A stretch of DNA of 64,000 nucleotides, taken from assembly GCF_964204645.1 (NCBI RefSeq), contig NC_134029.1:20044450-20108449 (forward strand), in the 5' to 3' direction. The position numbers and the translations under genes are program-made. Shown piece after piece: positions 8,501 to 60,587 of this stretch. The notes beneath the pieces were generated by a model. That model made no database searches. It was not told where the DNA came from and saw only the letters and a list, made by a program, of their open reading frames with translations. The first letter of the stretch is position 1, and each line of letters opens with the position of its first letter. The DNA comes from Tubulanus polymorphus (Eukaryota > Nemertea > Palaeonemertea > Tubulaniformes > Tubulanidae).

Positions 8501-8776
8501 CATCGTTAGCCGTTAAATAGTTTGTAGTAGGCTTAGCATATTTTCGTCTTTCTTCTACATTAGCTGCCATAGCAGCCATATTGGACATGGGAATCAACAG
8601 TATCAAGATAAAGGCCCTTTGGACAATTGCATCCCCCACATCGTTAGCCGTTAAATAGTTTGTAGTAGGCTTAGCATATTTTCGTCTTTCTTCTACATTA
8701 GCTGCCATAGCAGCCATATTGGACATGGGAATCAACAGTATCAAGATAAAGGCCCTTTGGACAATTGCATCCCCCA
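8501..8776. repeat. Exact 138-bp tandem duplication, open frame on minus strand
   Basis: The segment 8501-8638 is repeated without an obvious mismatch at 8639-8776. The unit of 138 bp is 46 codons, so the minus-strand frame (8780 down to 8451) stays open through both copies. Each copy would encode a hydrophobic stretch (AFILILLIPM) followed by a polar segment (NVEERRKYAKPTTNY). I recognise no family, and there is no supporting splice structure, so I annotate a repeat and not a gene. Confidence 0.85.
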
Positions 8777-8869
8777 CCATTTCTTTGATATCAATTAAAC
8801 TTTGGATTTAAGTAATACTGCCACTATGTAGTGATATAAGAATTGGAATATCAGTCAAGTTGGAAAACC

Positions 8870-9349: not shown

Positions 9350-12300
9350 GTAAGTCGGAAAGTAGACGATCCACACAGCTTGAACTTTCTAAAAACTCTG
9401 GTTTTTTCTACAGGATGCATTAGATTAATGATGTAATTAGTTGAAATTAGTTGTAGGTTCTATCCCGGGTGTCGAATCAGTAAACCATAACAAATGGATT
9501 GCACTTTGAAAGCTAACTAGATTTATTTGAATTACGAGCTTTCGCTACTAGTGCATAGTAGCTTCATCGGGAAAATGACCATAGTCAATGCAGAAACAAC
9601 TTTTATTCCCCCTATAAATACTGTTGTTTCTGCATTGACTATGCTCATTTACCTGATAAAGCTAATATGCACTAATAGCGAAAGCTTGTTACCTAAATAA
9701 ATCTAGTCAACCCTCAAAGTACTATCTGTTTTTATGTTTTACTGATTAGGTAGAATTAGTTAATTTAAATTAGTTAACTCTTTGACTCAGACCTGTGGAA
9801 TCTAAACTCAGACCTGTGGAAGTGGTTCCTTGGTTTTTTGTTAAAAATCGATAATCTTATTCACAATTTGATTTATAGGAGTCCTGTAATGGCTGGGGGT
9901 TTATTCGCTATGGATAAATCGTGGTTCTGGGATCTCGGCGGTTACGATCCCGGTTTGGAAATATGGGGTGGGGAACAATACGAACTGTCGTTTAAGGTAA
10001 GTCGGTTTATTTTAACGGTACATTAAAAAGCCGAATTCTTATCCATGTTAATTAATACATTGCGATTAATTCAGATAAGCTTCTTAAAAGCAAAAACGAA
10101 CTTATTCAAATCGTGATAATTCAAGTAAAAACGGAAATAAATTTAAATGATAATGCATTTTTGATTTGTACATTATGCTTAATATTTTTTCCGCATGCAC
10201 TGTTACTGAATGCCTACGATATATTTTACAATATCTTTGCCAAAATGGTTTCATAAGCTAAATAGTAATCTGCTTGTCTTGCTTTTCATCAAATTGAAAG
10301 TATTCTTTAGTTTAAACACTGTGGGATTTCGAAACTTAGTTTCCATTATACACTGTAGGATTGGAAACTTAGTGTCCACTATACACTGTAGGATTCAAAA
10401 CTTAGTGTCCACTATACACTGTAGGATTCAAATCTTAGTTTCCACTTTACACTGTAGGATTGGAAACTTAGTGTCCACTATACACTGTAGGATTCAAAAC
10501 ATAGTATCCACTATACACTGTAGGATTCAAATCTTAGTTTCCACTATACACTGTAGGATTGGAAACTTAATGTCCACTATATATTGTAGGATTCAAAACA
10601 TAGTATCCACTATACACTGTAGGATTCAAATCTTAGTTTCCACTATACACTGTAAGATTGGAAACTTAGTGTCCACTATACACTGTACAATTCAAAACTT
10701 AGTGTCCACTATACACTGTAGGATTCAAATCTTAGTTTCCACTATACACTGTAGGATTCAAAACTTAGTTTCCACTATACAGTGTAGGATTCAAAACTTA
10801 GTTTCCACTATACACTGTAGGATTCAAAACTTAGTTTCCACTATACACTGTGGGATTCGAAACTTAGAATGTAGATGATATTTCTGTAGTAATTGTGATC
10901 TGTGCATTAATTCACATTTTCTTTAATGTGAAAGAGACAGAAGCCTTTACCAGTAGACAAGCCGCTATCACACGAGCGATTTTGGCCCAGGCCAAAAGCC
11001 AAGAACATCGGACAAGGCCCGAGCCAAATTTTAGCATGGGTAAAATCATTGCATGTGAATGCTTACTGAGTGGTGTGAAAGCGTTCTCTAATTGGGCATT
11101 GACTCCGGGTTCAATCCGGGCCAGATGATCTCCGTGTGATAGTGGCTATAGTGATATTAGGATTTCTCACTGTTAGCTACTCTCTGATAGAGACTGTGGG
11201 TACTTAGAAACGTTCTTTACGAATACCTTTAGCTATCTTGTATATTTTATAGATCTGGCAATGCGGTGGTACGATGGTTGATACTGCTTGCTCTAGAATC
11301 GCTCATGTCTATAGAAAGTTCGCTCCTTTTCCTAATCCGGGACTCGGTGATTTTGTTGGAAAGGTAATATTTTCACGGTAAAAGGTGTTCGACGCGCGGC
11401 GCTTGCGTAAGATGCCCGGTTATTGATCCGGTGTTGTGTGTTGAAAATATTTTTACGCCAACTGTAAGATGGCTATTGAAATATGCATCTAGTTCGTACA
11501 GTTGTGGATTTTTACTCATTGAAAAAGTCAAACCACAGTTACTGCAATTAACAGTTGATAATGAATAATTAATGGATTTCATGTTTAACCCTTTCAAGTC
11601 TACACCGCAGTGCGGTGTATAAATTGGTGATGGACTTTGCTAGTACACCGCACTGTGATGTGTTAATGTAATAATTTTTACCTCTATTGAAAGGTGTCAG
11701 TGTCTGTCCAACATAGTGAAATATTGGTAACTTAAGATACTCCGCACCGCGGTGTAGATACACTAGATCTATATGCCCCTTATTCGACATACTAGAGTGG
11801 AAATTTTCAAATTGTTTCGAGCGCTTTTGGGTATTAATTAGTCAGCACTGAAAGGGTGAACAGATTACGTTTGATTCGGGCATAAACTTGAAATATAAAT
11901 CCACAACTTTGCGGCTGATTCTGCCGAAACTAAATCAATAAAGAATCTTTATCGGTTGCCATCTTTAAACTGCAAACGATTGAAGTATTCTAATGGTTTA
12001 AGACTCATTTGAGACTTCGTCAGTTGATTGTAAATTTCAACACGTGATCGCCGGTATTTATCACCGGGAATCAACGCGCTGCGAACGCGTAATAACGATT
12101 TTGTTTTCGCCGTTGTATGAAGATTTGGCAGTGCGGCGGTCAGATGGTCGATACCGCATGTTCGCGTATCGCTCACGTGTATCGTCGTTTCAACCCGAAC
12201 GGAGGAGGCTCGTCGCTCGGCAGGGTAGGACCTGATGACTTTTTTTCGAATATAGGTGGAGCGTTAGTAGATTTAGAAGTACTGGAGAATCTACGAACTT

Positions 12301-25184: not shown

Positions 25185-25966
25185 TTATTGGATTTTGATT
25201 TTGTACGCGCCTCGCCAGACGTTGGCTAGGCAGACGGTCGAATGGAAACGATACAGAATTATGAGAGGTATGCACAAATGGCTGATAATGTTCCACGGCA
25301 AAAACGTGTAGAAATTCAACTGGACTGGATTCGTGACCAAACGCATTTTTTCGAATGTATTCATGCCCCACATCGCCAGATTGCAAACCAACAGAAACGT
25401 GACGAACTCGCGGCCGGGCTTCGATTGTTCGTGCGACGCTTTCGTCGACACGCGTCGCAAGCCGTTGAATATGAAAACCGTTTGGATCGTCGACTGAACG
25501 AGCACCATCACCGCCGATATGAGCATCAACAGTCCGCCGATGCTGTCCGTGTGGTAGCGTCCGGCCAACACGCCGAACACGGCGTACACGTAAACGCCGG
25601 TCGTCGATATCAACAACAACGACTCGTCGAGCGAGTTGTCGCGTTCGCCGAGAAACTGCATATCGCGCATGCGCACGAACGCGAACACCGCCGCCATGCC
25701 CGTCAGAAAGTACAGCCCGATCTCCGACGAGTAGACGACGACGATCGCCGAGCCGACGAACTCTTTCTGACGCACGAGCACGTAGAACACGATCAACGAA
25801 ACGATGCCGCCGACGAACACGAGAATGCCGAAGAACAGGCCCTTGTTCGAGCCGTGGCAGTCGACGCTGACTCGGTTTCGTTTCTTGCGCAACGCGTCAT
25901 CTTCGTTGTAAAATGCGTCTCGCGTTAACGGACTTCCGATATTCCTCCACATGATGTACAGAATGC
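25185..25966 (-). CDS. OTOP: Otopetrin exon 8 (last; C-terminal helices)
   Basis: The minus-strand acceptor TTTCTTCAG precedes 25966. The exon starts GILYIMWRNIG, has a hydrophilic linker (DALRKKRNRVSVDCHGSNKG), then about six hydrophobic helices, and ends YKIKIQ before the stop at 25185-25187. The C-terminal PVQLNFYTFLPW and YRFHSTVCL motifs identify the family. The opposite strand has a long open frame caused by biased codon use; it is a shadow. Confidence 0.95.
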
Positions 25967-28900
25967 CTGAAGAAAGAAAAAAACATTGGTAATCACAAAT
26001 TATTCATCTTTCACAGTTGATTTCCTTGGATTTATAAATTTCTTGGGATTCTAGAACCATTGCCCCCAAACCTCTATTTTTGAGTGCCATGCCAAGATTT
26101 TAGTTCATTTGCCATATCAAAGGGAAACTTTAGAATTGGTAATTCTGTTACTTAACAATCATTGAATAATGCAAATTCAAAAAAAAAATTGGGGACTATC
26201 CATGGGTCCCGATACCGATGTTGCAATTGGTCGATTACCTGTCGTTATGAGGCTATACTGAATAGTCATCGGATATAAATAAGGACTGGCTTGTTCAACA
26301 GTGGCTCCCATCAGGTCGATATGCCGACATCCACCAGTAGGATCTGTGTCTACAAAAAACGAATTGGGAATAATTCAGCTTAGAAATTGAATTCCTAATG
26401 GTCGGCTAAGGTGCCGTTTATAAGTTACTAACCGTTGAGCAATAATTTTCTGACAATTCGGTATTTTCCGTTGTGTTTCGAGATATTTGCGGTTCCTCCG
26501 TCGGTCACGTACGATGACACTTGATCGTTTTGCTGTCGTTGTATTTGATTGTTAACCATGTCGGTGTAGTAATCGCGAAGGATCTCTTTGATCGTCACGC
26601 GACTCAACACGCAAAGATTCGTCGCGATCATGTGCATCAAACCGAATCGCGCCAGCGTCTTGAATTTATGGATGCACATCTGCAAAATTCATTCAAAATA
26701 ACAGTTTCATTCAAATTTGACTAGTTGTACAGTGGAACGTCGAATATAACAAGTTAGAACAAATCTAGAATTAAATCCAGAAAAGGATGAAATTACAAAT
26801 TTCATACTGGATATAACGAACTATCGGTTATAGCGAACATATTTTCTGGTTGCCTGAAGTTCGTTGTAACGAGGTTTCACTCTATCTAATAGCGTAGACT
26901 GTATTGAGCACTCTTTTATTCAGAGCTAAAAATTCAGTAGCAGACGGATATCTTAGTTTCATATACACCTGATAGATGGCATAAGAGTCAATAACAACGC
27001 AGCGATGACGTTAACCATGGATTTTACAGGTGAGTTTATAACTTGCCTTCGAGTTCAGGAATACGAAGTAAAGCTGTATGAAAGTGAATCCCAGATGTAA
27101 CATCGGTCGTACGACAACGAGTATGTTCGTGCAAGGCGATAATTTCTCCATATCGAATACTTCGCTGAATTTCAGACCATCGTGAATCATACTGCCGATG
27201 CCGAAAGCTGTAAAAAAAGTAATTCTTATTAATTATGCCGGCACAATTTTTTACAAGCCTGCTAATTGGCCTTTAATAAATCAATATCTTTTTTCTGAAA
27301 AAAGAAATATGATACACTTTTCCAGGTCAATTTTATCCTTATTTAAAAGAAAGTAATTTTAGAATGTAGGGTTTATTGCGTGCATCATAGTACATGTCTG
27401 CATGCATATACATTGATTACAATTTCATGTACACGAACTTCTAACTGTTTATATTTTCCCCGCATGCAGACATTGATCTAACCAGGCCAGACAATTACAC
27501 TTTCAAACCTTCCAGTCCTACGGATATGAATTACTGGCAATATGTAATATATTCAGCAGTAAGGATTAACCCAAAGTAGGTAGGCAAACATGTTTTACCT
27601 TTACGAGAGGTGTAGTGCTGTTTACTGGGTAAACATTCTAATATAAATTGGTTTCTTATTGAATAACAAGTGCCAGTATTTGAACTAGAAAGGTGTGGCT
27701 GAACGAGATGGCTGCAGTTCAAAATATGATTCAACGCTACCTAGATTATTTCTCTAGCCCCTAATAGCAAATGGCATGAAAAAACAGGTATGGAGGCTCA
27801 AGCTTTGAAACAAGTCATCTACCTTCTTAACTGTATTCTGGAATGTTACTATTCTGGCAAAGGGCTTAAACGCATAAGTTGACGAGAAAAGCCCCCACTT
27901 TGAATTCAAAGGTTTGCAGGGATACAGGGGACTTTTGAGACTTGTACAAGTCCATCAAATCTTTTGTATGCCATATTTCATTTGACCAACATGGAAAATC
28001 GGTGCATTTCAGCGTCTTATAATGCTTTTTGGACATCAACAATGTGCTCGTTGTAAATAGTTGAGACTATTCCCAGTCTTGGATGAATACCATTAAGAGT
28101 AACTGACGATATCAATTTAAACAACCGTAATCATTTTTTTCCCTATGTCTTGGGCAGAATTCTTCCATAAATTTGTTTCAATTGATATTGCGTGATTTTC
28201 TCAAATGACATCAAAGAGCCCTTCTGGGATGTGGCAAGTTCAATCAGGGTCTGTATAGCTCCTCTTACTTCAAAATACGACTTTCTTTCTGCGAGACATT
28301 TCGACTTGTATACGTACCGACTGAACCGACGCGTAGATAGAAACTGCCGGTGTGATGCGTACCGACGATCACGCCGATTTTACGCTTCCTCGGCTTGTCC
28401 ATCAGCGCGTGCGTCGTCAGTCCGTTCTCTTCGCACTTCTTGCGTTTCTGCTTGCGATACGTGCGCACGGTTTTGTTGCGCAACAAATACGCGTACACGT
28501 ACACGAGGAACAGTATCGCGATGCCGTACAGATAGATGTAGAACGCTTCGTAGAGGTTGTACGGAACGGCGTGCGCGAAGATCTCCGTGATCGGCATCAC
28601 CGTACCGAGAACGACCAACGCGATCGCGTACAAACTGCTCGTTATATTGAAGAAACAGTCTCTGAAAAATACAAGAAAACAACGCACATTATAGTACAAC
28701 GTCGATCACGAGTAATATGAAATGAAATAACGCTCCTCCCCCGGCAGGGATTCGAACCTGATGGCATCAAGACTCGCAACAGTACCGAAACACCGCCTGA
28801 TTAGCCCGAGTGCGCCGCTTAGATGATGCCATTATCAGCCAATCAGAAATTGCGTTTTATTTTGGCCCAAGTTTGTCCATTTATAGTTTATCCATGAAAT

Positions 28901-34900: not shown

Positions 34901-37900
34901 ACAGCATTGATGAGATTACGGAAGAAAAAAACACGTTTTATGGAAATCTCTGACAAATATGACATCGTAATCGAGAATCTGCCGATGAGGGCACTAACTT
35001 GCAGCTGTAATTGCTGCCATTAATAATAGATTCATTTACTCGCGATTCCAGTGGCATATAAGCACTTAAAACACTTCTCGATTAATGCAATTAGCTCTGT
35101 AACGAAGCCCCCACTACGCACGCTTAAACAGAGGGCAAACCGTTTTAGTCATCATTATTTTTATGTGCAATCACAGAGATTGAAATAGATTAACTTCCAG
35201 TGGAAAGATCAACCGATTTTAGTCCTTATTCCACCAAAATATAGAACATTTAGACTTAGAAGTAAAAATCTCCGCATTTGTGCAGAACGATTTTGGTGGT
35301 ATAGAGTGGCGGTATAATGGGGGTGTTTTACGATGTATTATGGCGGTATAATGGGGGTTTTATTATGTATTATGGCGGTATAATGGGGGTGTTTTACTAT
35401 GTATTATGGCGGTATAATGGGGGTGTTTTACTATGTATTATGGCGGTATAATTGGGGTGTTTTACTATGTATTATGGCGGTATAATGGGGGTGTTTTACG
35501 ATGTATTATGGCGGTATAATGGGGGTTTTACTATGTATTATGGCGGTATAATGGGGGTGTTTTACTATGTATTATGGCGGTATAATGGGGGTTTTATGAT
35601 GTATTATGGCGGTATAATGGGGGTGTTTTACTATGTATTATGGCGGTATAATGGGGGTGTTTTACTATGTATTATGGCGGTATAATGGGGGTGTTTTACG
35701 ATGTATTATGGCGGTATAATGGGGGTTTTATGATGTATTATGGCGGTATAATGGGGGTGTTTACTATGTATTATGGCGGTATAATGGGGGTGTTTTACTA
35801 TGTATTATGGCGGTATAATGGGGGTGTTTTACTATGTATTATGGCGGTATAATGGGGGTGTTTTACTATGTATTATGGCGGTATCATGGGGGTGTTTAAC
35901 TATGTATTATGGCGGTATAATGGGGGTGTTTTACTATGTATTATGGCGGTATAATGGGGGTGTTTACTATGTATCATGGCGGTATTATGGGGGTGTTTTA
36001 CTATGTATCATGGCGGTATAATGGGGGGTGTTTTACTATGTATCATGGCGGTATAATGGGGGTGTTTTACTATGTATTATGGCGGTATAATGGGGGTGTT
36101 TACTATGTATCATGGCGGTATTATGGGGGTGTTTTACTATGTATCATGGCGGTATAATGGGGGGTGTTTTACTATGTATCATGGCGGTATAATGGGGGTG
36201 TTTTACTATGTATCATGGCGGTATAATGGGGGGTGTTTTACTATGTATCATGGCGGTATAATGGGGGGTGTTTTACTATGTATTATGGCGGTATAATGGG
36301 GGTGTTTTACTATGTATTATGGCGGTATAATGGGGGTGTTTTACTATGTATCATGGCGGTATAATGGGGGGTGTTTTACTACGTATCATGGCGGTATAAT
36401 GGGGGGTGTTTTACTATGTATTATGGCGGTATAATGGGGGTGTTTTACTATGTATTATGGCGGTATAATGGGGGTGTTTTACTATGTATCATGGCGGTAT
36501 TATGGGGGTGTTTTACTATGTATTATGGCGGTATAATGGGGGTGTTTTACTTTGTATTATGGCGGTATAATGGGGGTTTTACTATGTATTATGGCGGTAT
36601 CATGGGGGTGTTTTACTATGTATTATGGCGGTATCATGGGGGTGTTTTACTATGTATCATGGCGGTATAATGGGGGGTGTTTTACTATGTATTATGGCGG
36701 TATAATGGGGGTGTTTTACTATGTATTATGGCGGTATAATGGGGGTGTTTTACTTTGTATTATGGCGGTATAATGGGGGTTTTACTATGTATTATGGCGG
36801 TATCATGGGGGTGTTTTACTATGTATTATGGCGGTATCATGGGGGTGTTTTACTATGTATTATGGCGTTATAATGGGGGTGTTTTACTATGTATTATGGC
36901 GGTATAATGGGGTTTTTACTATGTATTATGGCGGTATAATGGGGGTGTTTTACTATGTATTATGGCGGTATAATGGGGGTGTTTACTATGTATTATGGTG
37001 GTATAATGGGGGTGTTTTACTATGTATCATGGCGGTATAATGGGGGGTGTTTTACTATGTATTATGGCGGTATCATGGGGGTGTTTTACTATGTATTATG
37101 GCGGTATCATGGGGGTGTTTTACTATGTATTATGGCGTTATAATGGGGGTGTTTTACTATGTATTATGGCGGTATAATGGGGTTTTTACTATGTATTATG
37201 GCGGTATAATGGGGGTTTTAACAATGTATTATGGCGGTATAATGGGGGTTTTAACAATGTATTATGGCGGTATAATGGGGGGTGTTTTACTATGTATTAT
37301 GGGGGTGTTTTACTATGTATTATGGCGGTATAATGGGGGTGTTTACTATGTATTATGGTGGTATAATGGGGGTGTTTTACTATGTATCATGGCGGTATAA
37401 TGGGGGGTGTTTTACTATGTATTATGGCGGTATAATGGGGGTGTTTTACTATGTATCATGGCGGTATAATGGGGGGTGTTTTACTATGTATTCTGTATAA
37501 AGATGTGCATTGAGAAAACCTGGCGGTAGGCAGGGGTATGTGGGAGGGCAGTATAATGGGGGGGGGGGGGGTGACTGTATATACTTCAATTTAACAAAAA
37601 ATCTTGTAAATTCGACCCATCATCCAACTATATCTGTTCTTCGATTTTGATATCGAAAAACCCTATTTTGCTCCCAGCAAGTGTGGCGGGTTTGTAAGGG
37701 TCACCAAATCAAATCAATTCTAATGAAAAACGGGGTCAACCCCTATTCCAAGATCAAGCCCTAGGAGAAGTACTTCAGTCAACGAACCGCTAAAGTCAAA
37801 ACAAAGCTATTACAGCATTTTGGTAATCTAAATATAAATTCCATTGAAATAGATAACTTTGAAGAATAAGAAAAGTAAATTGGGAAAGAACTTTTAAATA

Positions 37901-48044: not shown

Positions 48045-51000
48045 CTAAGCGGAAGGCGTTTCTTCTCGTTCCAACTCTCCAGCGATATTTTCGATCAACA
48101 TTTCGATTTGTTTGATAGATAAATGCAGCATATCGCCGGAAAACGTATTCTTCGATACTTTCTTGTCGCACCCTTGCCATATTTTCGGTATATGCATGCA
48201 AGCCGAGAGAAAATCCAACACTTCCCGCGACTTGCATTTATCCGATGCCGGCAAATTGTCTTTCAGCATATTGTCGATACACTGTTGAAGAGTCGACCAG
48301 TTCGACTGATGAATTAGCAAAGCCAACAGATACGTAATTCTTTTCGAATGGTCGAGGTAATCGGGATGTTTGCCGTCCGGGTCTAGTAATTCCAACCAAT
48401 CAACTAACACACCGGTAGCTAAACTGTCGTGTTCGGTATTTTTCAAATGATCGAACAAAACGTCGAGCGACTTATTATTTACGGCGCCATCTTTCAACCC
48501 GTCCGATATGAACCGCTTAACGATCTCTTCCAGTCTAGGATTATTCAACTCGGTGATTCCGTCGGTCAATTTCTTTCCGTCTACGGGCTCATTCTCAACG
48601 ACAGACGAGGCCGGTTTAATCTTCTCGCCGACGATTCTCTTTGCCAGACAAATCACCGGCGACGAACAATTAGGAGCGCTGTCCAAAAGCATCGCCATTA
48701 CGGAAGTCAGCATTTCACTCGGCGGCTTCTGTTTCGTCGTGATTATTTTCAACAACGGAGAAGAAATGCTGGTATGCAAGAGAAAAGCTTGAACGAAACG
48801 TCGACCGTCGTCCGACTGTAAAATCTGATGAATCGACGACAAAACGACGTCGCAAACCTTCGCATTCTTCATTATAGCCTTTTGAACGTCCTTGAGGAGC
48901 GACTGCCGATGGTTGAAAGCTACATCTTCATCTAAGAAAAGTTTCTGCACGACTTTCGTAGCCGACGCTACGTTTTTAAACGTTACCGCTACGTCGGGGA
49001 GCTTCTTGCTGAGGTCGAGATTCAGCGTCGCGTGTTTCGGAGGCATCGCCTTCCAATTTTCCGTTTGCGGCTGCTCTTCCGTCGGAGTCAATATCGAGTA
49101 GAACTTATCGCCTCCGCAAGCGCCGCGCAGTTTTTGTACGTCAATGAGTTGAGCCATATACGATTTATCGACGATATTTTCCTCGACAGACGGCAAGTCG
49201 GTCTCGACGGCGCAATCTAAAGCGTTCAGGAGTTTACTCATGCTGCTAACCGGAATGCCGAACGACTGCACGAACAGAAGCAATTGCGACGCTTCGAGGT
49301 CTTGCAAAGCTCCGTCGACCAGTCGCGGCGTGGCCGACCTGATCAAACGCAGTTTCAGCCAATCGGGCAACAACAAAGCCTCTTCCGAAGTATCGACCAA
49401 GAACGCCGACGGCGGCAAAGTTTCGGCGGGAAACCACGTCTCGAGAAGTTCAGAGAAATCGCTCGGTTCGTTCGGATAACCGTAAGTGAGGAGTATAATC
49501 ATAGCGTGTACGACGAGAATATGTAAGGTGACCGTGTCTCCGTTCTCCCACTGAATCAGAATCTGGTCTTGTTTATCGGACCAGGCGTACGCTTCCTTTT
49601 TAGGTTGCTTCGCCAGGCGGATATACCGTACAAAAATGTTAATCAACGCGGCATGCACATTATCAGCGTATTTAGAACATTTTTCTTCGCCGGGTAAAAC
49701 CTGATTCATTACCAACGCTCGCTCGACAATCAACTGAGCCAGGTCCAAACATAGATCGGCGAGTTGTTGGGGCTCTTCCGGTTCGAGTCGGTGTCTCTCC
49801 AAGAACAGGATATAGGCGGATATGGCGTTCGTATCCATTTCTACTCGACACGCCTGCCGCAGCGCGAGCGCGATCTTCGGCTGAAGCGACGCAAAATGCG
49901 TCAGTAAAGGAATCTTATTCAGCAGCCATTTATACGACAGAAGCAGATCGTCGGCGCGTCGTTCCGTCGAATCCAGGTCTTTGTTTTCCGGATTGGCTGA
50001 ACACAAAACCATCGATAAGCCCTGAACGGCTAGCGCTCTCGACGACGCTTGCTGATTCGATAAACGCTTCATGAAATAATCGAGAACTTCTTCCGAAGCT
50101 TTGCAATCGCTTTGCGGCGAGAACAGCAACGCGTTCAGGCGTTTCAGCAACAGTTCCTGTTTCTTGATCTTCTGTTTCTTTTTCAACTTTTGCGCGCCGG
50201 TCTCGTCGTCGTCTTGTTGGAAAAGGCCGATGTCCGATTCGTGTAGCAGGAACTCGCACAAACATTGAACAGGCAACACCTCGAGCGAGCCCTCGTTTGA
50301 TTCGACGAGCTCGGCCAACCACGGCATCGATTGCGACGTGCCCTGTCGCTGAATTATATCCATCAGGAAGTCGGGTTCGCGACTGCAACACAACAAATGC
50401 CCGATTCTCAACGACTTGTTCATCAACTTCAGTTGGTCGATCACCCACAACGGCGGCTTTCTCGCCGGACCAGTGGGATCCATCGACGTAAGCTGCGAAA
50501 TCAGAAGGCTGTTGTTCTCCGTGATCGTCACCTTGCTCGTAGCCGCGGCCAAATGACCTTCGAATTCGAGAATTTGCTGCTTTTCCATCGCGACGAGTTG
50601 TCGATCGTTATTCCATATTTCTTCGATCGACGCGTCGTCCGTCGCGCAAGTCGGGGGCGGAAATTTGTAATTGTTCGTCATCACCATCTCCATCAGCGAC
50701 TTCAACGTCGGGTACAGATCCCACGCGGCTCGACCCAAAGTCGACGGGTTGAAAGCCGCGATTACCAACAGCATATCCCACGCCTTCCAATAAAGGTTCG
50801 ATATCGCGAGTGTCGGCGGCTGGTATCCGCGCGGTAAGGCGATATTTTCCGGATGATGGTAAGTACACGCGTTCAATACGGCATCGAAAAATTCCAATCG
50901 TTCGACGTTCAAAACTGGAATGCCTTCCATTTGCAGAGCGGCCGCGCGTTCGACTAGCTTATCGGCTAATTCCAGCGCGTCGGCCGAATTCAGAGGTAGA

Positions 51001-52991
51001 TCTTTCGACAAACCGACGATGAAAATTCGCATCAGCGTGTCCTCGTGAACGGGTACCTCCGACACGGCCCTTATCATCAGTCCGCGCTCCGATTCCGTAG
51101 GCCAGTTATCCTTATTATAGTACTGCTCCGGCTTTTCCAAGAACACAAGCTTGTGCAAACACAAAAGGAACTCGGCGTTTTTCAGGGTCGTCAGCTTCGG
51201 TACGATCGTGTGAAGCCAGCAAACCGAATCGCGTTGGATGCCGGCGATCTGCTGTTGAAACGATGTCAACGTCGCCAGCTCGCGGAAATCGCCGCGGTCA
51301 TACGCGGTGATTGTTTCTTTGATGTGAGGCGTCACCGACAACAAGCAGGTCATACACACGAGATCGACGATTGACAGGATCAACCGCTCTTTGAACATCG
51401 TTTCCAAATCGGCGAACTTCGGCTCCGAGCGTTCGGCGAGCAAGCCGAGCACGAACGCCGCGAAGTTCATGTCGTACTTCAACGTGCGCACGATCTCGCG
51501 TAACAACGCGCGCAACGCTCGCAGGTAATCGTCGCGATTGATCAGGAAATCTTGGAATATTTCGGCGAGGATTTTCGCCGCTGTGTCAGGAGTGTGCTGA
51601 AACACGACCGATATGATACCCATGTTGTTCGGGTTGCGAGCGCTCGACAGTTCGTTGTAGATCGTGTGCGTCAGCAGGCTGCGCACGTGCACCGGCGCCT
51701 GGATGATGATCTCGCGAATGCAACCGAGGTAATGATTGATCAACGGCTTCGTTTTCATGCGGATCTTGATGATCTGCGCCAAGATCTCCTGCGTCGCGCC
51801 GCAATTCATACAAACCGACATCAGCAACTCCTGTGCTGGTCGCGTCAGTTTCGGATTCTGCAGCCACATCTCGAGGCGTTGCGCGGCCATTACGCGCACC
51901 TCGTTGTAGCCGCATGTCGCGATCATCAGTTTCAGGAAATTACGCGAGATGTTATCGAGACCTTGACCTCGCCGAGTCAAATGCTCTTTGATCGTGTCGA
52001 CGACGAAGTTCTCGACGACCGTCTGCTGATAGATGTACCGCGGGAAAACAACGATGTTCTTCAACTCTTCAGCTGTTTTTACGAAGACGCCACTCGCTCC
52101 GCCGCTGACCGTTTTATCGCCGGTATCGCTATCTGTCGCTTCTTCATCCGGGTACGACGTAAACATAATCGGACTCGAACAAGACGACGACGATTCGGCC
52201 GGTTTGATCGCGAAATTCTCCGATTTCGGCGGTAATTTCGTATCGAACGCCGACTGGATATTATCGACGAACCCCTGACAGTCCTCGCGGTCGACCCAAA
52301 TACGTTCGCCGAGCGAATCTTCGATGTACACTTTCAGAAACTGGTCGGGCCAGTTTTCCTCCTCTTGAAACGCGGCCATTAACACGTTACAAACGAGAAC
52401 GGGCACGAGCGCGTTTCCTTTCGTCTTAAAGTTGATACCGACGTCGCGTTTCAGTAAACTGCACATCGCTTCGATTACGACGTCGCTGTCGAACAGTTGC
52501 TGACGAGTTTTAGCCAGACACATCAACGTCAGGAATACGGCTTGATTCGGTTTCGTGCGGTTATTTCGTAAATGTTTGACGGCGCCGCACAGAAGCCCCT
52601 CGAGTTGTACGTCGTCGCCGGTCTCTTCGGCCGATTCAATCGCGTTGTACAAATCCTGAGGATCGACGTCGATCGCGTTTTCATACGTGAACGTTTGCGT
52701 CTGAGGGGCCGGGGAACCCCGACGGTCCGTATCCGGTCTACCGAGCGGTGTAAATGTTTGAGAACCCAATAGTTTTGGTCTCTTGGCCGCCGAACCGCAA
52801 GTATGCTGAGCCGGCTTTTCGCGTTTCATTCCGCTCGTGAGTCCAGCTTTTTTCGGTAGAGCGGAAGGCGGTCTCAAATCGACTTCGCTCGAAGACCTCG
52901 GTTTGGAACCTAAAGCGATTAAGTCTCCAGGCGGAAGGTGACCTTTTTGTTTGCCACCAGGGCGTCTTGTCATTGGTTTTCCACGCTCCAT
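48045..52991 (-). CDS. INTS1: Integrator complex subunit 1, single-exon, C-terminally short (1648 aa)
   Basis: INTS1 is the large scaffold of the nuclear Integrator complex, which processes snRNA 3' ends and cuts nascent RNA at paused polymerase. The start is the ATG at 52991; the N-terminus has PGDLIALGSK (residues 21-30) as in other animals, a basic Ser/Pro tail, and YIEDSLGERIWVD at 222-234. Further down are LTRPAQELLMSVCMNC, FNELSSARNPNNM, FLVDTSEEALLLPDWLK and SFGIPVSSMSKLL, then helical repeats to IWQG at 1604-1607. The frame stops 41 residues later (ETPSA). Known INTS1 proteins are around 2,050-2,200 residues, so some 400-450 C-terminal residues are absent. The whole 4.9 kb has no intron, unlike vertebrate INTS1 and unlike its neighbours. 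Confidence 0.95.
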   Translation of the reverse strand: MERGKPMTRRPGGKQKGHLPPGDLIALGSKPRSSSEVDLRPPSALPKKAGLTSGMKREKPAQHTCGSAAKRPKLLGSQTFTPLGRPDTDRRGSPAPQTQTFTYENAIDVDPQDLYNAIESAEETGDDVQLEGLLCGAVKHLRNNRTKPNQAVFLTLMCLAKTRQQLFDSDVVIEAMCSLLKRDVGINFKTKGNALVPVLVCNVLMAAFQEEENWPDQFLKVYIEDSLGERIWVDREDCQGFVDNIQSAFDTKLPPKSENFAIKPAESSSSCSSPIMFTSYPDEEATDSDTGDKTVSGGASGVFVKTAEELKNIVVFPRYIYQQTVVENFVVDTIKEHLTRRGQGLDNISRNFLKLMIATCGYNEVRVMAAQRLEMWLQNPKLTRPAQELLMSVCMNCGATQEILAQIIKIRMKTKPLINHYLGCIREIIIQAPVHVRSLLTHTIYNELSSARNPNNMGIISVVFQHTPDTAAKILAEIFQDFLINRDDYLRALRALLREIVRTLKYDMNFAAFVLGLLAERSEPKFADLETMFKERLILSIVDLVCMTCLLSVTPHIKETITAYDRGDFRELATLTSFQQQIAGIQRDSVCWLHTIVPKLTTLKNAEFLLCLHKLVFLEKPEQYYNKDNWPTESERGLMIRAVSEVPVHEDTLMRIFIVGLSKDLPLNSADALELADKLVERAAALQMEGIPVLNVERLEFFDAVLNACTYHHPENIALPRGYQPPTLAISNLYWKAWDMLLVIAAFNPSTLGRAAWDLYPTLKSLMEMVMTNNYKFPPPTCATDDASIEEIWNNDRQLVAMEKQQILEFEGHLAAATSKVTITENNSLLISQLTSMDPTGPARKPPLWVIDQLKLMNKSLRIGHLLCCSREPDFLMDIIQRQGTSQSMPWLAELVESNEGSLEVLPVQCLCEFLLHESDIGLFQQDDDETGAQKLKKKQKIKKQELLLKRLNALLFSPQSDCKASEEVLDYFMKRLSNQQASSRALAVQGLSMVLCSANPENKDLDSTERRADDLLLSYKWLLNKIPLLTHFASLQPKIALALRQACRVEMDTNAISAYILFLERHRLEPEEPQQLADLCLDLAQLIVERALVMNQVLPGEEKCSKYADNVHAALINIFVRYIRLAKQPKKEAYAWSDKQDQILIQWENGDTVTLHILVVHAMIILLTYGYPNEPSDFSELLETWFPAETLPPSAFLVDTSEEALLLPDWLKLRLIRSATPRLVDGALQDLEASQLLLFVQSFGIPVSSMSKLLNALDCAVETDLPSVEENIVDKSYMAQLIDVQKLRGACGGDKFYSILTPTEEQPQTENWKAMPPKHATLNLDLSKKLPDVAVTFKNVASATKVVQKLFLDEDVAFNHRQSLLKDVQKAIMKNAKVCDVVLSSIHQILQSDDGRRFVQAFLLHTSISSPLLKIITTKQKPPSEMLTSVMAMLLDSAPNCSSPVICLAKRIVGEKIKPASSVVENEPVDGKKLTDGITELNNPRLEEIVKRFISDGLKDGAVNNKSLDVLFDHLKNTEHDSLATGVLVDWLELLDPDGKHPDYLDHSKRITYLLALLIHQSNWSTLQQCIDNMLKDNLPASDKCKSREVLDFLSACMHIPKIWQGCDKKVSKNTFSGDMLHLSIKQIEMLIENIAGELEREETPSA

Positions 52992-54426
52992 TTCACTCTG
53001 ATTTCTGAATCACCACTACTACACCAGCAGCCGGAGAGGGACAGGATCCAGACTTTTTTCGTCTTAGTCTTGTCTTATAGGATACATAATTAACTGCAAT
53101 ATAAAACACAAATATATATATATATCAATTCCATGCAGAACCATTTGAATAATACCATTTGAAATTGTACACACGAAGGGTCCTCCTTATAAGGAGGATC
53201 GCACACGAATACATTTTAGGCTAGTCTGAATACCAGTCGTTGTTACCTGGTTACGGTTCGATTACGACGTCGCTGTCGAACAGTTGCAGGAACAACGGCT
53301 AGGTACTAGACTAATTTTAGGCCTACTAAATAAATTAGGTGAATTTAATTTTAGATTGAATGAAATTTTCTGATATTTAAAGGTTTTTGATTAATTTTTT
53401 AGCTCTATTGTGCAGGAAAATATTCAACAGATTATAAATTCTTACCGGCAAAGTTTGACAGATAGCCGCTTTTGCTAGAATTGAAGTAAAAATGGATAAC
53501 ATCATAAATTCGGCCGATTTTGCTTTTTGCACCGCTTTCTACCCGGTAGGTAAAACGCGGAAATGTTTCCAGTCCGAGACCGTGTTTTCTCTATTGCTTA
53601 CGTTGTTGTGCTGTCGCGAAACGATTTGCGGCGGTTCGAGTCCCGAAATTAACATTCAATATCTTTTCCACTGAGTTAGAGGTCAAATCCATTTCGCTTG
53701 TATTTTAGCTGTCCGGTCGCGAATATCAGTGTAAACTTAGTGAGCTTAATCGAAATATATTGGTCCCTTAATAGCTAAACGCTAAAGACTTCGGGTGAGT
53801 ATGATTTGTCCGGTTTTCCCTGAAATTCAGTGGATCTGGACCTGACCTGTCTTACAACAGTTACAAAATATGTAAAATAATATGACTCCAGCAGGCATTT
53901 ATTACTGATATAATATGATTTCAATTGTTAAAATCAATGAGGAATAAATAAATTTGTTATATTCCATGTCATCTCGGTAAAATACGTCATCTCGGTAATA
54001 AGGATGAACGGTCTGTCCTGTCTGCCCCTGATATTTTCACAAACCACATACGCCCATATATATGGTATAAGCCCATCCGATCACAAAAACCTTAGCACAA
54101 ACGATTAGGTAACTAACTAGAACTGGAAGAGAAGTCAAAAGAGGAATTTCAATCAAATAAAAGGCAATGTTTTTTTCCTCGACACTACACGGATATCTGT
54201 AATCTTCGATGCCACTTGCTGAGTCTTCGTTGGCTCTGCATGAAAATGTCTAAGTAACAAAATGATTTGCGTTATTCTTCGCTTTCAGATTGTCAGGATG
54301 ATCTTCAAGTAAAGCTGACACATCTTCACAAGAATTCCTAGCGATAGCCGTATCAATAACAAAACTGAGGGACCGGGAGGTGTAGCTCACCGTTAGTCTG
54401 AGTTCAGTCTTGAATTTGGAGTAATA
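52992..54426. other. Divergent INTS1 / COQ2 promoter region
   Basis: The 1.4 kb between two divergently transcribed genes should hold both promoters. I see a palindrome TCCTCCTTATAAGGAGGA (about 53181-53198), a copied fragment of INTS1 (53257-53287) and no clear TATA box. No gene is supported. Confidence 0.6.
53257..53287. repeat. 31-bp exact copy of INTS1 coding sequence (52470-52500)
   Basis: The 31-base segment starting TTCGATTACGACGTCG and ending CGAACAGTTGC is identical at both places and in the same orientation. The flanks differ, so it looks like filler DNA from a repair event rather than a gene copy. Confidence 0.9.
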
Positions 54427-54847
54427 ATGGCGGCTGTGATATTAACACGAAATTCTTCCTTTATACGGAATCTCAAACACTTACGGATATTTTCTACGTC
54501 GACATTTCGCCGTCGAAATGCGGCGAATTCAGAGCAGAACGGTAGTAGCGAATCGAATTCATCGAAATTCAAATCGAACAGAACGATCTCAGAACGTAAC
54601 GCGGTTATGTGTCGGAGGGATAAACTTTCGGCGAACTTCTTAAAACCTTTAAACAACCGGTTGATTTCGGGATGCGCCGTCGTAAATAATTACCACGGAT
54701 TGAACAGAAATTCGATCGACTACCGAACGACGAAATGTCCACGGGTCGATACTTATCGCGGAATGTTTTCATTGACAAGCGTCGTCGATTGCGCTCCAAA
54801 TAATATCCAGCCATACTTGAGATTGATCAGATTTGACAAGCCCATAG
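54427..54847 (+). CDS. COQ2: COQ2 exon 1 (targeting signal)
   Basis: Starts at ATG 54427 ([20 protein letters not shown]) and ends with [19 protein letters not shown], a conserved UbiA start (PY.RL.R.DKPIG). The donor GTAAGC starts at 54848; the Gly codon is split. The stretch between about residues 30 and 120 is low in homology. Confidence 0.95.
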
Positions 54848-57800
54848 GTAAGCCCAAATTCGAGATTTTCTGTCTTTTTGGATGAAAATACTCATCCCAT
54901 ATTTCCTATCAGTTTTTAGTTCAGGTTTTAAAAAGCTTTGCCCCTAAAAGTGGTGCCAGAAATTGTAGCCCAGTGATTCTACAATGTCAAAATTACTCTC
55001 CCCTCCTAAAATAGAATATGAAAATTTCTGTCACCTGGGTATCTACCACTTAGGCTATATCTTTGGAATAAGTACATCTGCAGCTAATTGATTGGTAGTT
55101 GGTGACCTACCGCGCGGTTGTAGTTGGCGATAAGCTGTTAGGCCTCTATTCACTTGGGCTGATATCATTATCAACCAATTTAGTTTTTGAAATATGCAAT
55201 CATGAACCTTCCCCTACAGAGTCCGGTTTCTGGCTAATTTATCGGGGGGGCTATTTCACACACAGAATTCTAAATCTCGGGAAAATTGTTTGAAATTAGA
55301 AGAATTGGCTCGTGTAACTATCGTTCAGTCTTGTAAATATGATTTTCAATGAATTATGGAATTCAAAAAGGAAAATATTTTCATAAAAAAAACGTCATCA
55401 ACTTTATACTAAATGATTTACAAACATCTGAGAATGCAAGCAGCAAATGGTTGCATACGTATGAAAAAGGACTAATAGGATTGTGCAACCAACTGCACGA
55501 TTTTAGTAAAAAGGTTCGTTTGGGACCTTACCCTAAAATATTTACCTGTGGACTATTTTGTATATTGATAATCTATTTTATAGGTACATGGCTTTTATAT
55601 CTGCCGTGCACGTGGAGTATAGCGATGGCCGCGTCGGCCGGACACCTACCCGACCTGTATCTACTAGCGCTGTTCGGCGTTGGGGCGTTCGTTATGAGAG
55701 GTGCTGGTTGTACGATAAATGATATGTGGGATAAGGATATCGATAAGAAAGTGGCGCGCACGCGGATGCGGCCTCTGGCTTGCAATCAGATTACGCCGTT
55801 TCAAGCTCTAGTGTTTCTCGGCGCTCAGCTTTCGGTCGCGTTGACGATTCTAATGCAACTGAATTGGTACAGGTACGTCGTGTTCCGTGTACTTCATACA
55901 TCACTATTAATCAAACTATAATGATCTGTTTTACCGGTGTTTTTGGAAGCTGACATTCTTCCGACCTTTGATAAGCTTATAGAGTTGATGCACATGACAT
56001 GATACTTTGTTTGCTGGTGGTCAGTGCTGGAGCCAGTTGCTCAAAAGTTGGTAAGAGTTAACCAATAGTTAGTTGACGTAGTGACCGTTAAAAGTTCTTC
56101 GTTACTTTGGTATTTATCTGCCGGTTATCTTTAGCCAACTTTTGAGCAGCTGGCCTCTGGAGGCTTGGCATTACTAAGAACATAAGATAATCTGAACCCG
56201 GTTTTATAGGCTGGTATTAACTTCAGCCTGGGTGCTAACCCCCGGGTTAAAGTTAAACTTTTGAACAACTGGCTTCTGGACCCAGTTCCACAGTGCCGAG
56301 TTAAGATTTAACTCTGATTTAACTCATCGAAAACGAACAAACTTTAACTCAGAGTTAACTCTAACTCACAACTGTTGAACTGGGTCCTGGAGGCTTGGCA
56401 TTATTAAGAACAGAAGATAATCAGGGGATCTATGGTAAACTTCGAGGGTCTGTCATGTAAATCACTTATCGTGATCAGCCATCATTCAATATGGTATGGT
56501 CACACGGAATAGCGCATGGCTACATTTTCAGGATATAAGCTTATAAACTTATTCCATATTTTCAGTGTTTGTATCGATCACTTTCCTAAGCAGTTATTCG
56601 TTAACAGATATTTATTGGATATTTTCAGCGTTCTGCTCGGCGCTAGCTCAATGGGTTTAGTCGTACTTTATCCTTTAGTTAAACGTTACACTTACTGGCC
56701 TCAGATTGTATTAGGTACGTATCGTTAGGAGCAATGTTTAATTCGTCGATAGATAATCTATAATATCGAATCATACTTGTGCATAAATAGCTATGCTTCC
56801 TTTTTTTCGGTTTAAGGTATTAAGACTGCGAGGAAATGTATTTGATATCGTATTTCTGCAAATTTCATAAATGAAAAAAAAAGAAAAAACTTTCCGGCAA
56901 TTTTTGATTTTTCGGTGGAATTTTCCAACAAAAAAAATATCCATTTCATCCCGGCGTTTTCATTCGTTTTTGTTTTGTAAACCTGTTAATCAGGTTGCAT
57001 TTTACTGCGTTTTATTCTCTCAGGTATAACATTAAACTGGGGTGTGTTGTTGGGTTGGTCAGCCGTTCAAGGTTCGTGCGGCCTTGTCGCGCTAACCCTA
57101 TACACATCTAGCATTCTGTGGACGTGTATATACGACACAATATACGCCCATCAAGTGAGTAAGCCCCGCCCCTTCTCGCTTATAGCTATAGGTGCTCTGC
57201 ATATAATCATGTATATTATTTATAACTCGCTTTATACAATGGAGTTCATTGTACTTGTCATGACATTTCAGTTTGTTTTATTTCCATATTGCAAATGAAT
57301 TTCATTCGTTCATTCATCAATAACAGAAAATCATTTCAGAGAAAATATTGAGGGAGAGTCGTTAAACCTATAGCCCACTATGTATATGGGCCGGGGTAGA
57401 CTTAGTGTGTAGTCTAAATTGTCTAATGCCCAATCAGAAAGCTAAAAGAACAGAGCTGAACACTACACAGTTTCCTGAGATGATACAGTATTTGCGTCGG
57501 TTGTGAATAGCCCAAAATCTGTCAAATATGAACACTGCATGTTTTCATAAGCAAAGCAAAATATCGTTGAACTTCTTCAAAGTTGTTTATTGCTGTAAGC
57601 AATAATTCATTTTCAATTTAAAGCAGGTGACCGCAGCTCTGCTGCTGGAAAAGCTTTATAGTCGAAACATCTAGTAATATGTCTGTAACACCTGTAAGAT
57701 ATCATAGACCCAAACTGTCACCAAATAGTGCTTTCAGTATGTGTGTAGAATCTGTCGTCGAACCCACCTCCCATTAATGTTTACTACATGTCACATCACA

Positions 57801-60587
57801 CAGTGTCCCATTAGAAATCATTCACTATTCCATTGCAGCTCCACACTTTTTTTTCGGTTTCAATTTTCAATCGTGAAAAACGGATCTGCAATTGATAGAT
57901 TGGCTGGTCCGGAGAAATACGGAAAGAAAATTCCTCATTCGGTTTAATTTAGGGCATAATTTTGCATTGCTCCTGTTGGTATTGGCTTCGTTTTTTTTTT
58001 CCGCGCTCAAATCTTTCTCGCACAAGATTGCGCTGTCGCTGATTTCCGCGCGTTCTCTGAACAATCCTAATTCTAATCGAATCGAATTTGTGCTTGTTTT
58101 TGTCAGGTATGACTTTCAACTGGGGTGCCCTATTAGGCTGGGCAGCAGTTCATGGAAGTTGTGCGTGGCCGACTGTTGTACCCTTGTACCTTTCGGGCAT
58201 AGCTTGGACTTTAATATATGACACCATATACGCGCATCAAGTGAGTAGAAAATTTCATCAAAACAAAAACAAAATTGCCTTGTTCATCACTGTTTGGAAG
58301 CTTGACTTATATCAGTGTCACGATTCCATTGATGATACGTAATATCGACGGTTTACATCGGCTAGTTCGGTTTTCTGGAAATAACATATTATTCTAGTGA
58401 TTGAATTAATTAGAAAGAGCTAAATGATTCACGTGCCGTGGGTTTCATACTGAAATTGGTGTTGGGTTTTCATATATACGATGTGAAAATATAACCGGGC
58501 ATTACACTATTTTACTTGCGCGCTGTTAATTCTTTGTTGGCTTTTCGCGAATGAAATAGATTCACCCTGATTGGGAGTGGATGTCAATGAATCAAAACCC
58601 TTCACCTCGCCCCGAATAGCTTCTCTTACACGTGCTTTCCTTCCTTTCGAAATATGAAATCTATCATCATCTCAATCACGATGGCTCGCTGCAGATTAAG
58701 AATCGCTGTCCAGCCTAAGGGGTGTGTTCAGAATACGAAAAATAAATACTTTGTACAAATTTCTAAAATGTGACGTTGTAAATCAGCAGCTGCAACCCCT
58801 CTGTGAAATTCAATGGTATCTTTTTATTTTTTTCTTAGCATGGACGTATGATTTTGATTATTCGGCTTCTTTTATTAAGATGATGCATTACGCATAAGAT
58901 CAAATAACTTACTATTCACCCATAAGCTAATTCAGACATTAATGAAGCTTCTTTGCTTGTTATCGGAAATAAATATCGTTACGATTAGTTATTTTGTCTT
59001 CAATAACATGTACCTTATTTTTTTCTTATCATTTATTTGCACAAACAAAGAAACCTTTTTTTCTTTTTTTACTTATTTGTTCGCCGTGCTTTAACTGTCG
59101 CTGCGCAATCCTTATAAGTAACAATTTAGCGTCCATTGAATTTGAAGGCTGTCTTACGATAAATTGTGTTTAGATGATGCAGAGACAATTGGAATTACAA
59201 AATGTATGTCGCGCGAAGAGATGTTGTATCAAATCAGTAAACACAAAGACCGGTATTACTTCGTAGGTTAACTCGATTTTGTTAAAAGTACAAGCTTTTG
59301 CAGCTAGGGCATAGCAGCTTCATCAGGTAATTGAGTGATCACTGACGCGATGAAGCTAGTATGCATTAGTAGCAAAAGCTCATATTTATAATAAAATCAC
59401 ATTAACATCGAAGTAGTACTCAGTCTTTGCGTTTACTGAAATGTATATCACGTGTAGTAAACCTCGCCTAACTCCGACGAACTGGTACTGGAAAAATTGG
59501 TCAGAAGTTAACGAAGTCAGAGTTTAGGATAGGAAAATATGTTAGGAAGCTTGAAAATGATTTTGTTGTTGTCCGAGTTTGCCATGTCCGAGTAAAGCAA
59601 GGTTTACTGTATTACAGCAGCATTTAAAAACCGATTTACATAAAACACCCTTCAAACATCTGGTCTTCGGTGTTTCAAACCATTTCCTCTTATGTTGAAT
59701 GCATTGTTTTCCTAGAAGTTTTTATTTCGATCGTTGAAACTGATTTTCTCGATGCGTGATTGTATTCAAATACTTTTACAGGATAAAACCGACGATATTT
59801 TGATCGGCGTTAAATCAACGGCGTTGAAATTCGGCGAGCAGACGAAATATTGGGTATCCGGATTCAGCGTGGCGATGCTGGGCGGATTGGTATCGGCCGG
59901 ATACATGTGCGATCAGACATGGCCGTTCTATACAGCAGTGGGCATAGCCGGAGCTCATCTAGCTAAACAGGTCAGTTGTCTGCAGGTGTAGGCTGCATTT
60001 GTCTCTGAAACCAGTTCTCCTAAAGCAGGGAGCACACTCGGCGATTTTTCCACCTTCAATAGCGTTTGAAAATTTTACTGGCGATTGAATCCGCAATCAC
60101 GCAGAGATAATTCTGTTCGGGGCAAATTGGCTATTTCACAAATAAAGGTTTTTTCACAAAAAGCGGCCCCCTCGGTTGCCTAATCGAGTCGCTGAAAGTG
60201 CCACCTACTCGGTGCAAAAGAATTGGCAGTTGAGTGCGGGCATTCAGTCACAACGATAATCACCTAGTTTATCACTGGCTTAAACTGATTTCGCTAAGAA
60301 AGTTAATGCAAGCTAAGAAGCTTCATTTCAAAAACTGGCAATTCATCTAGGGCTTGTAATTGCTACCTGCTTATATTGTTCATCTATGTTTTACTCGCTG
60401 CTTTTTCCAGATTTACACGTTAGATATGGACGATCCCGACGACTGTTTCCGCAAATTCTGTTCTAATAAACAGCTTGGTTTATGGCTGTTCGGCGGAGTC
60501 GTGTTGGGCACGTTGTTGAAGACGTCTGCTGCAGATGAGGAGACCGAGGTATCCGACGATACTGTATTCACCGAAACTGTTAAATGA
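54427..60587 (+). CDS. COQ2: COQ2, 4-hydroxybenzoate polyprenyltransferase, with alternative exons 4e/4a
   Basis: COQ2 is the inner-mitochondrial-membrane UbiA-type enzyme that attaches the polyprenyl tail to the benzoate ring in quinone synthesis. Exons: 54427-54847, 55584-55872, 56629-56714, then 57024-57154 (4e) or 58107-58240 (4a), 59782-59970 and 60411-60587. With 4a the sum is 1296 nt (431 residues); with 4e, 1293 nt (430 residues). The N-terminus is Arg/Ser-rich, as expected of a mitochondrial targeting signal. The first aspartate motif is NDMWDKDID (186-194); the second, [13 protein letters not shown], is split by the exon 4/5 junction. About eight hydrophobic helices are visible. The two exons 4 suggest a choice between ubiquinone and rhodoquinone precursors. 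Confidence 0.96.
54848..55583 (+). other. COQ2 intron 1
   Basis: GT-AG intron of 736 bp. I see no repeats or exons of note. Confidence 0.85.
55584..55872 (+). CDS. COQ2: COQ2 exon 2 (first aspartate-rich motif)
   Basis: Acceptor TTTTATAG, donor GTACGT. It encodes [17 protein letters not shown], then [20 protein letters not shown] and [23 protein letters not shown] is the Mg-diphosphate-binding motif of the UbiA family. It ends LNWY and a split Ser codon. Confidence 0.97.
55873..56628 (+). other. COQ2 intron 2
   Basis: 756 bp with a short palindromic MITE-like element (56275-56395) preceded by diverged GAGCAACTGGCT fragments. Confidence 0.85.
56275..56395. mobile_element. Short palindromic MITE-like element
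   Basis: CTGGACCCAGTTCCACAGTG on the left; CAACTGTTGAACTGGGTCC on the right; interior GAGTTAA/TTAACTC arms pair. Confidence 0.75.
56629..56714 (+). CDS. COQ2: COQ2 exon 3
   Basis: Acceptor ATTTTCAG, donor GTACGT. It encodes [20 protein letters not shown] and TYWPQIVL, a conserved COQ2 segment (YP..KR..YWPQ). The last nucleotide begins the Gly codon completed by either exon 4. Confidence 0.95.
56715..57023 (+). other. COQ2 intron 3
   Basis: 309-bp intron, A/T-rich with runs of A; nothing further seen. Confidence 0.85.
57024..57154 (+). CDS. COQ2: COQ2 alternative exon 4e (rhodoquinone-type candidate, 131 nt)
   Basis: The acceptor TTCTCTCAG ends at 57023 and the donor GTGAGT starts at 57155. 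It encodes [20 protein letters not shown], then [18 protein letters not shown]. Compared with exon 4a it has Leu for Phe (TLN/TFN, residue 269), Val for Ala (GVLL/GALL), Ser for Gly (SSI/SGI), and Cys for Leu (WTC/WTL), and one residue fewer. These are places where human COQ2 agrees with 4a, so 4e is the derived copy. Both splice sites are intact. The 'e' name follows the nematode naming and is an inference. Confidence 0.93.
57155..58106 (+). other. Intron between COQ2 exons 4e and 4a
   Basis: 952 bp. No third exon copy is visible. An RNA structure that enforces the choice could be here, but I could not identify paired elements by eye. Confidence 0.7.
58107..58240 (+). CDS. COQ2: COQ2 alternative exon 4a (ubiquinone-type, 134 nt)
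   Basis: The acceptor TTTTGTCAG ends at 58106 and the donor GTGAGT starts at 58241. It encodes [20 protein letters not shown], then [29 protein letters not shown] and [14 protein letters not shown] match vertebrate COQ2, so this is the ancestral, ubiquinone-type version. It begins and ends in the same phases as 4e, and the two cannot both be included without a frameshift. Confidence 0.95.
58241..59781 (+). other. COQ2 intron 4 with foldback element
   Basis: 1.5 kb, AT-rich; holds the foldback element at 59235-59438. No exon seen. Confidence 0.85.
59235..59438. mobile_element. Foldback element, GAGCTTTCGCTACTA family
   Basis: Ends CAGTAAACACAAAGACCGGT and GTCTTTGCGTTTACTG are inverted complements with a few changes. 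The interior has CAAGCTTTTGCAGC and TAGCAAAAGCTCAT. Confidence 0.75.
59782..59970 (+). CDS. COQ2: COQ2 exon 5 (second aspartate motif)
   Basis: Acceptor TTTTACAG, donor GTCAGT; phase 0, 63 codons. It encodes [20 protein letters not shown], then [13 protein letters not shown], closely matching DK.DD.LIG.KSTALRFG of the family. The leading DKTDD completes the motif begun in either exon 4. Confidence 0.97.
59971..60410 (+). other. COQ2 intron 5
   Basis: 440 bp; it includes a fragment of the TTTGGCCC family near 60085-60150 (CCGCAATCACGCAGAGATAA). Confidence 0.8.
60411..60587 (+). CDS. COQ2: COQ2 exon 6 (last)
   Basis: Acceptor CTTTTTCCAG. It encodes [20 protein letters not shown], then [16 protein letters not shown] and an acidic tail ending ETVK before TGA at 60585-60587. 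IYTLD and the ...NK.LG.. segment fit the COQ2 C-terminus. Confidence 0.96.
   Translation: MYTLDMDDPDDCFRKFCSNKQLGLWLFGGVVLGTLLKTSAADEETEVSDDTVFTETVK

Follow-up and report, generated by a model that had tools for sequence, protein, structure and literature searches.

Alternative use of two homologous exons in coq-2, an a form and an e form, has been described in nematodes, flatworms, two molluscs and one annelid; no e-exon was found in mammals (PMC7434440). In that study, two a-to-e changes are invariant: Leu for Phe at 204 and Ser for Ala at 243. C. elegans in which exon 6e is deleted has almost no rhodoquinone, and with 6a deleted it has less ubiquinone; the study does not settle whether the switch had an ancestral or a repeated origin. 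In PMC8659336, C. elegans COQ-2a with both residues changed restores survival where rhodoquinone is needed. A 2025 study of annelids (PMC12403961) describes the first residue (Phe/Leu) as the most diagnostic and the second (Ala/Ser) as having no clear pattern in its sampling. Rhodoquinone has also been reported in mammals (abstract of PMC13174367), so an e-exon is not to be taken as the only animal route to this quinone. Within the literature searched, rhodoquinone with brachiopod and COQ2 with mutually exclusive exon led only to PMC12403961 and PMC7434440, and nothing was found on rhodoquinone in Bryozoa. The original prediction for the locus described here had named an a/e precedent in nematodes, molluscs and annelids, and PMC7434440 bears this out, with flatworms in addition.

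Here, we focus on a COQ2 gene lying in a window of 64 kb, by which we mean the whole stretch of DNA that was analysed. Its exon layout is of the known coq-2a/coq-2e kind; its value lies in an e-like form with Leu204 but without Ser243. The reading that best accommodates the evidence, and which we consider probable as a whole, is an exclusive exon 4 pair that switches COQ2 between the ubiquinone and rhodoquinone routes. The gene occupies 54427-60587 on the plus strand and has six exons in each transcript, drawn from the following seven:

54427..54847, plus strand: COQ2 exon 1, from the open frame and a GT donor; predicted start ATG at 54427.
55584..55872, plus strand: COQ2 exon 2, from the PF01040 match here and the splice sites.
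56629..56714, plus strand: COQ2 exon 3, one of 12 open exon 2/3 junction combinations.
57024..57154, plus strand: COQ2 exon 4e, 131 nt; putative e-like alternative exon, Leu204 and Ala243 (C. elegans numbering).
58107..58240, plus strand: COQ2 exon 4a, 134 nt; pan-eukaryotic form, Phe204 and Ala243 (C. elegans numbering).
59782..59970, plus strand: COQ2 exon 5, common to both isoforms, from the PF01040 match and a protein match.
60411..60587, plus strand: COQ2 exon 6, common to both isoforms, with TGA stop, from an open frame in register.

All six donors of the model are GT and all six acceptors AG, those of exons 1-3 by construction. Against TIGR01474 (4-hydroxybenzoate octaprenyltransferase; cut-off 275.45) the two isoforms attain 381 and 379.9 bits, which places the gene in COQ2, and the PF01040 match of exon 5 reaches 30.4 bits, under the cut-off when that exon is taken alone. 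Exon 1 is presumed to code for a mitochondrial leader and the start of the UbiA domain, and exon 2 carries NDMWDKDID, which we take to be the Asp-rich motif. The upstream boundaries are less certain, since exons 2 and 3 can be joined in 12 ways that keep the frame open: exon 3 was chosen because the resulting protein aligns with TIGR01474 without a break (280 residues on 280 positions), the chosen combination being the one of the 12 that was scored.

Elsewhere in the window, an uninterrupted 1654-aa frame on the minus strand (48045-53009) matches Integrator subunit 1 through two of its Pfam domains (428.9 and 195.6 bits), and an Otopetrin-family exon, also on the minus strand (25185-26003; 265.7 bits), covers positions 186-434 of a 434-position model. 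Repeats include a large minisatellite at 35307-37492 (65 copies of a 34-nt unit, 93% matches) and a second at 10316-10867 (33-nt unit, 16.7 copies) within a 222-codon open frame. At 8500-8777, a 138-nt unit in exact tandem duplication (100% matches) lies within a 118-codon minus-strand open frame and reflects either a recent event or an assembly effect. In the assembly, twelve contigs span 11.5-32.1 Mb and the next has 0.24 Mb, which suggests n = 12. A search of the assembly for COX1 found nothing, and models of mollusc haemocyanin and annelid erythrocruorin linker were likewise without a hit, although the silence of their controls gives that result little weight.

Exons 4e and 4a are placed between exon 3, ending at 56714, and exon 5, starting at 59782. 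They are alike at their edges, with cag before, GTA first, CAA last and GTGAGT after, and their phases are equal; the original prediction of paralogous exons with matching phases and GTGAGT donors was exact in its coordinates, its acceptors (cag|GT) and its donors (CAA|GTGAGT). Read in gene phase, 4a encodes [G][44 protein letters not shown] and 4e, one codon shorter (131 versus 134 nt), encodes [G][43 protein letters not shown]. The two peptides give a local BLOSUM62 score of 157, with the same residue in 28 of 43 aligned codons, and a repeat finder run on 56715-59781 returned 4e/4a as the two longest direct repeats. A chance open frame or an assembly duplication has nothing in its favour and is scarcely credible: among open stretches of at least 15 residues in all six frames of the window the runner-up to 157 scores 42, and 46 of the 129 aligned positions are different between the copies, with flanks whose likeness stays within the range of shuffled sequence. 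The 300-nt upstream flanks score 26, at the top of that range (200 shuffles, mean 19.3, maximum 26), and the 300-nt downstream flanks score 22 (200 shuffles, mean 19.5, maximum 28). Because the intron flanks keep little or no likeness, the duplication is not recent.

The 46 differences fall 11, 9 and 26 on codon positions 1, 2 and 3 (excess at third positions, binomial p about 0.001), a spread that fits both exons having been kept as coding sequence. The same distribution bears on the idea that 4e is a relic from a rhodoquinone-making ancestor, spliceable but no longer so used. Its missing Ser243 and missing codon are readable as drift, but its frame is open, its splice sites are intact and consensus-like, and its differences are concentrated at third positions, so that we regard a relic as improbable. 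Judged from these sequence features, 4e is a real and probably functional e-like exon, and the pair very probably a working alternative cassette.

A genome-wide search for UbiA domains gave five matches at three places: COQ2, an uninterrupted frame on C7 that is taken for UBIAD1 on its sequence, and a match on C4 that is likewise taken for COX10. COQ2 is thus the only 4-hydroxybenzoate polyprenyltransferase gene found. A second genome search, with 4e plus exon 5 (E up to 1), recovered exon 5, 4e and 4a as all three of its three candidates and found no further copy of exon 4, including any with Ser243, a missing match being no proof of absence.

The lengths of the two exons bear directly on how they can be used. 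Both 131 and 134 leave a remainder of 2 on division by 3, so that inclusion of both or neither breaks the frame and inclusion of one at a time keeps it. With one exon 4 copy, COQ2 is a full protein of 430 or 431 aa. With neither, translation yields 266 aa and meets an early stop 184 nt before the last junction; with both, it yields 310 aa and the early stop lies 317 nt before the last junction. Nonsense-mediated decay of both-exon and no-exon transcripts would be expected, and the frame logic points to mutually exclusive use of 4e and 4a in RNA. With 952 nt of intron between them, the two exons lie too far apart for exclusion by simple steric hindrance. Minor-spliceosome branch motifs gave no hit for any of three patterns within 56600-59800, and regulator words in the introns, as raw counts without a control, were one for Rbfox, none for STAR, one PTB-like, four GU-repeats and seven runs of seven T. 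Within 56715-59781, exact stems extend to 14 nt at most, a length reached in none of 50 shuffles (maximum 13). Control of splicing by base pairing was set aside, since the one perfect pair listed at that length consists of an A-rich/T-rich run; the excess over shuffles stands. The intron after 4a also holds an imperfect inverted repeat (59267-59406; 68-nt arms, 4 nt spacing), perhaps a small mobile element.

Assignment to the coq-2 a/e family depends on the residues encoded. The pair consists of two adjacent, homologous, same-phase exons in the core of COQ2, as described by Tan 2020, and residue 204 is Phe in 4a and Leu in 4e, the Leu204 of that description; the TLN of 4e, against TFN in 4a, had been picked out correctly from the DNA. 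Residue 243 is Ala in both exons, so that the Ser243 of Tan 2020 is absent and the assignment is made by Leu204 only. Position 243 was located in 4a as the Ala of YAHQ, 39 residues on from the only Phe (204), and a legend for Alvinella in PMC12403961 places the residue third from the exon end. Both exons do end in YAHQ, as a predicted common ending YDTIYAHQ implied; that ending holds Ala243, a point the prediction had missed, as it had the shorter length of 4e. Nor do both exons have the 134 nt of C. elegans (131 and 134 here), a length stated for that species and no general rule. Since the second residue is not diagnostic in the annelid material (PMC12403961), Ala243 in 4e weakens but does not sink the e-exon reading.

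The wider comparison is with 21 alphaproteobacterial UbiA proteins, 20 of which are titled SAR116, so that the set represents one clade and few independent cases. All 21 have Phe at 204 and Gly at 243, and all 21 are one residue short in the loop where 4e lacks a codon; the same loop is six residues longer in 4od4 (HMMER alignment). 4e and 4a differ in 16 columns, and in four of these the bacterial majority sides with 4e (at Val273, Ser278, Leu286 and the missing codon, by window protein numbering). It sides with 4a in another two, Phe269, which is C. elegans residue 204, and Leu294, and matches neither exon in the remaining ten. The picture of 4a as conserved and 4e as deviant therefore fits Phe204 but not the exon as a whole, in a comparison confined to one bacterial clade. 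The three solved structures returned were a 4-hydroxybenzoate octaprenyltransferase, a digeranylgeranylglyceryl phosphate synthase and a prenyltransferase, none of which is presumably a vertebrate COQ2 of the kind that 4a was predicted to match.

Precursor genes for rhodoquinone are present elsewhere in the genome. Kynureninase is represented by seven of eight candidates, matched in profile order on C8 and each under the whole-protein cut-off because exons match singly; one of these exons matches solved kynureninases at 5e-17. TDO (three of five candidates, exons in order) and KMO (four of four, arranged in order on C3, with identity to the human query as high as 59%) are also found. Stops fall inside two of seven, one of three and three of four matched stretches of kynureninase, TDO and KMO, respectively, as when a match overruns its exon. 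On these exon-level matches the kynurenine pathway extends to 3-hydroxyanthranilate, which can probably be made. The Ldh_2 family, which we take to be that of the archaeal-like malate dehydrogenase of rhodoquinone makers, is represented by a gene with three matches in order (three of six candidates). Among the solved structures most similar to one of its exons, ureidoglycolate dehydrogenases come first and a malate dehydrogenase ranks fourth of five, and by sequence the exon seems to resemble the two kinds about equally. An archaeal-like malate dehydrogenase is reported for every rhodoquinone maker covered by PMC8659336.

The quinone site of ETFDH reads RPSFN against RPSCH in pig, the one comparison made, with Phe where pig has Cys. 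This residue would be equivalent to Phe437 (C. elegans numbering), going by the Cys/Phe pair that PMC8659336 names as changed in rhodoquinone users; like the Ldh_2 gene, it is a candidate marker. A genome search for alternative oxidase gave no match, and its control was silent too. The active-site loop of TDO (C5, about 4.30 Mb) reads PQD, and three aligned solved enzymes have PLD (two) or ALD (one). Its proline was dropped as a rhodoquinone marker, since PDB entry 4hka, which we take to be fruit-fly TDO, carries it too. The loop appears as PLD, with a listed proline, in PMC8659336. The kynurenine genes are supporting and not decisive, because TDO and KMO are missing from siboglinid worms, which nevertheless carry an e-exon (PMC12403961).

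The proposed mechanism begins with a tandemly duplicated exon 4 in a single COQ2 gene, one copy of which would be used per transcript. Inclusion of 4a would give the ordinary enzyme, which prenylates 4-hydroxybenzoate for ubiquinone. Inclusion of 4e would swap a core stretch, with Leu replacing Phe204 near the substrates, and this form would most likely prenylate 3-hydroxyanthranilate, from the kynurenine pathway, on the way to rhodoquinone. The 4e cassette is likely to serve rhodoquinone synthesis; a change of substrate by 4e, and production of rhodoquinone by this animal, are what the mechanism predicts. The rhodoquinone switch originally put forward is supported in part: the type of switch is rightly named, Leu204, the frame and the 3-hydroxyanthranilate genes speak for it, and the absence of Ser243 and the 131-nt length of 4e speak against its strict form. 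Against the mechanism we count that Ala243 is kept, that the bacterial column majorities do not make 4e simply the odd one out, and that the sufficiency test in C. elegans changed both residues together (PMC8659336). The pair could instead be a true exclusive cassette whose Ala243 form does not favour 3-hydroxyanthranilate and tunes ubiquinone synthesis in certain tissues, for example through altered activity or use of another benzoate. The absence of Ser243 from 4e agrees with this, as does the equally good fit of both isoforms to the 4-hydroxybenzoate model, but in annelids position 204, with its Leu, is the more diagnostic of the two (PMC12403961) and the genome has both kynurenine-pathway genes and a Phe-form ETFDH; we judge ubiquinone tuning rather unlikely.

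A rhodoquinone switch at this locus would raise the question of whether Leu204 alone is enough for the rhodoquinone precursor. The only alternative exon found combines Leu204 with Ala243 and thus offers a natural test of Leu204 sufficiency. The pair is also of value for its distribution, if the species falls outside the phyla in which it is known, and any further lineage that has it informs the choice between an ancestral and a repeated origin. It is a tentative suggestion, which we would not yet favour, that a natural Leu204/Ala243 e-form still makes rhodoquinone, so that one residue sets the switch, and that the pair is older or wider than four phyla, should the animal belong to a phylum other than molluscs, annelids, flatworms and nematodes.

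Compared with the 6a/6e exon pair of C. elegans and helminths (PMC7434440), the pair lies in the same gene, replaces the homologous core exon and has its exclusivity enforced by the frame; 4a, at 134 nt, has Phe204 and Ala243, and 4e has Leu204. Unlike the C. elegans exons, 4e is 131 and not 134 nt, has Ala243 in place of Ser243 and is a predicted exon. In the COQ2 of annelids (Alvinella pompejana and siboglinids; Fig. 9 legend of PMC12403961), a and e exons are likewise adjacent and the first residue is diagnostic, and the second residue (Ala/Ser) is patternless, in keeping with Ala243 in 4e.
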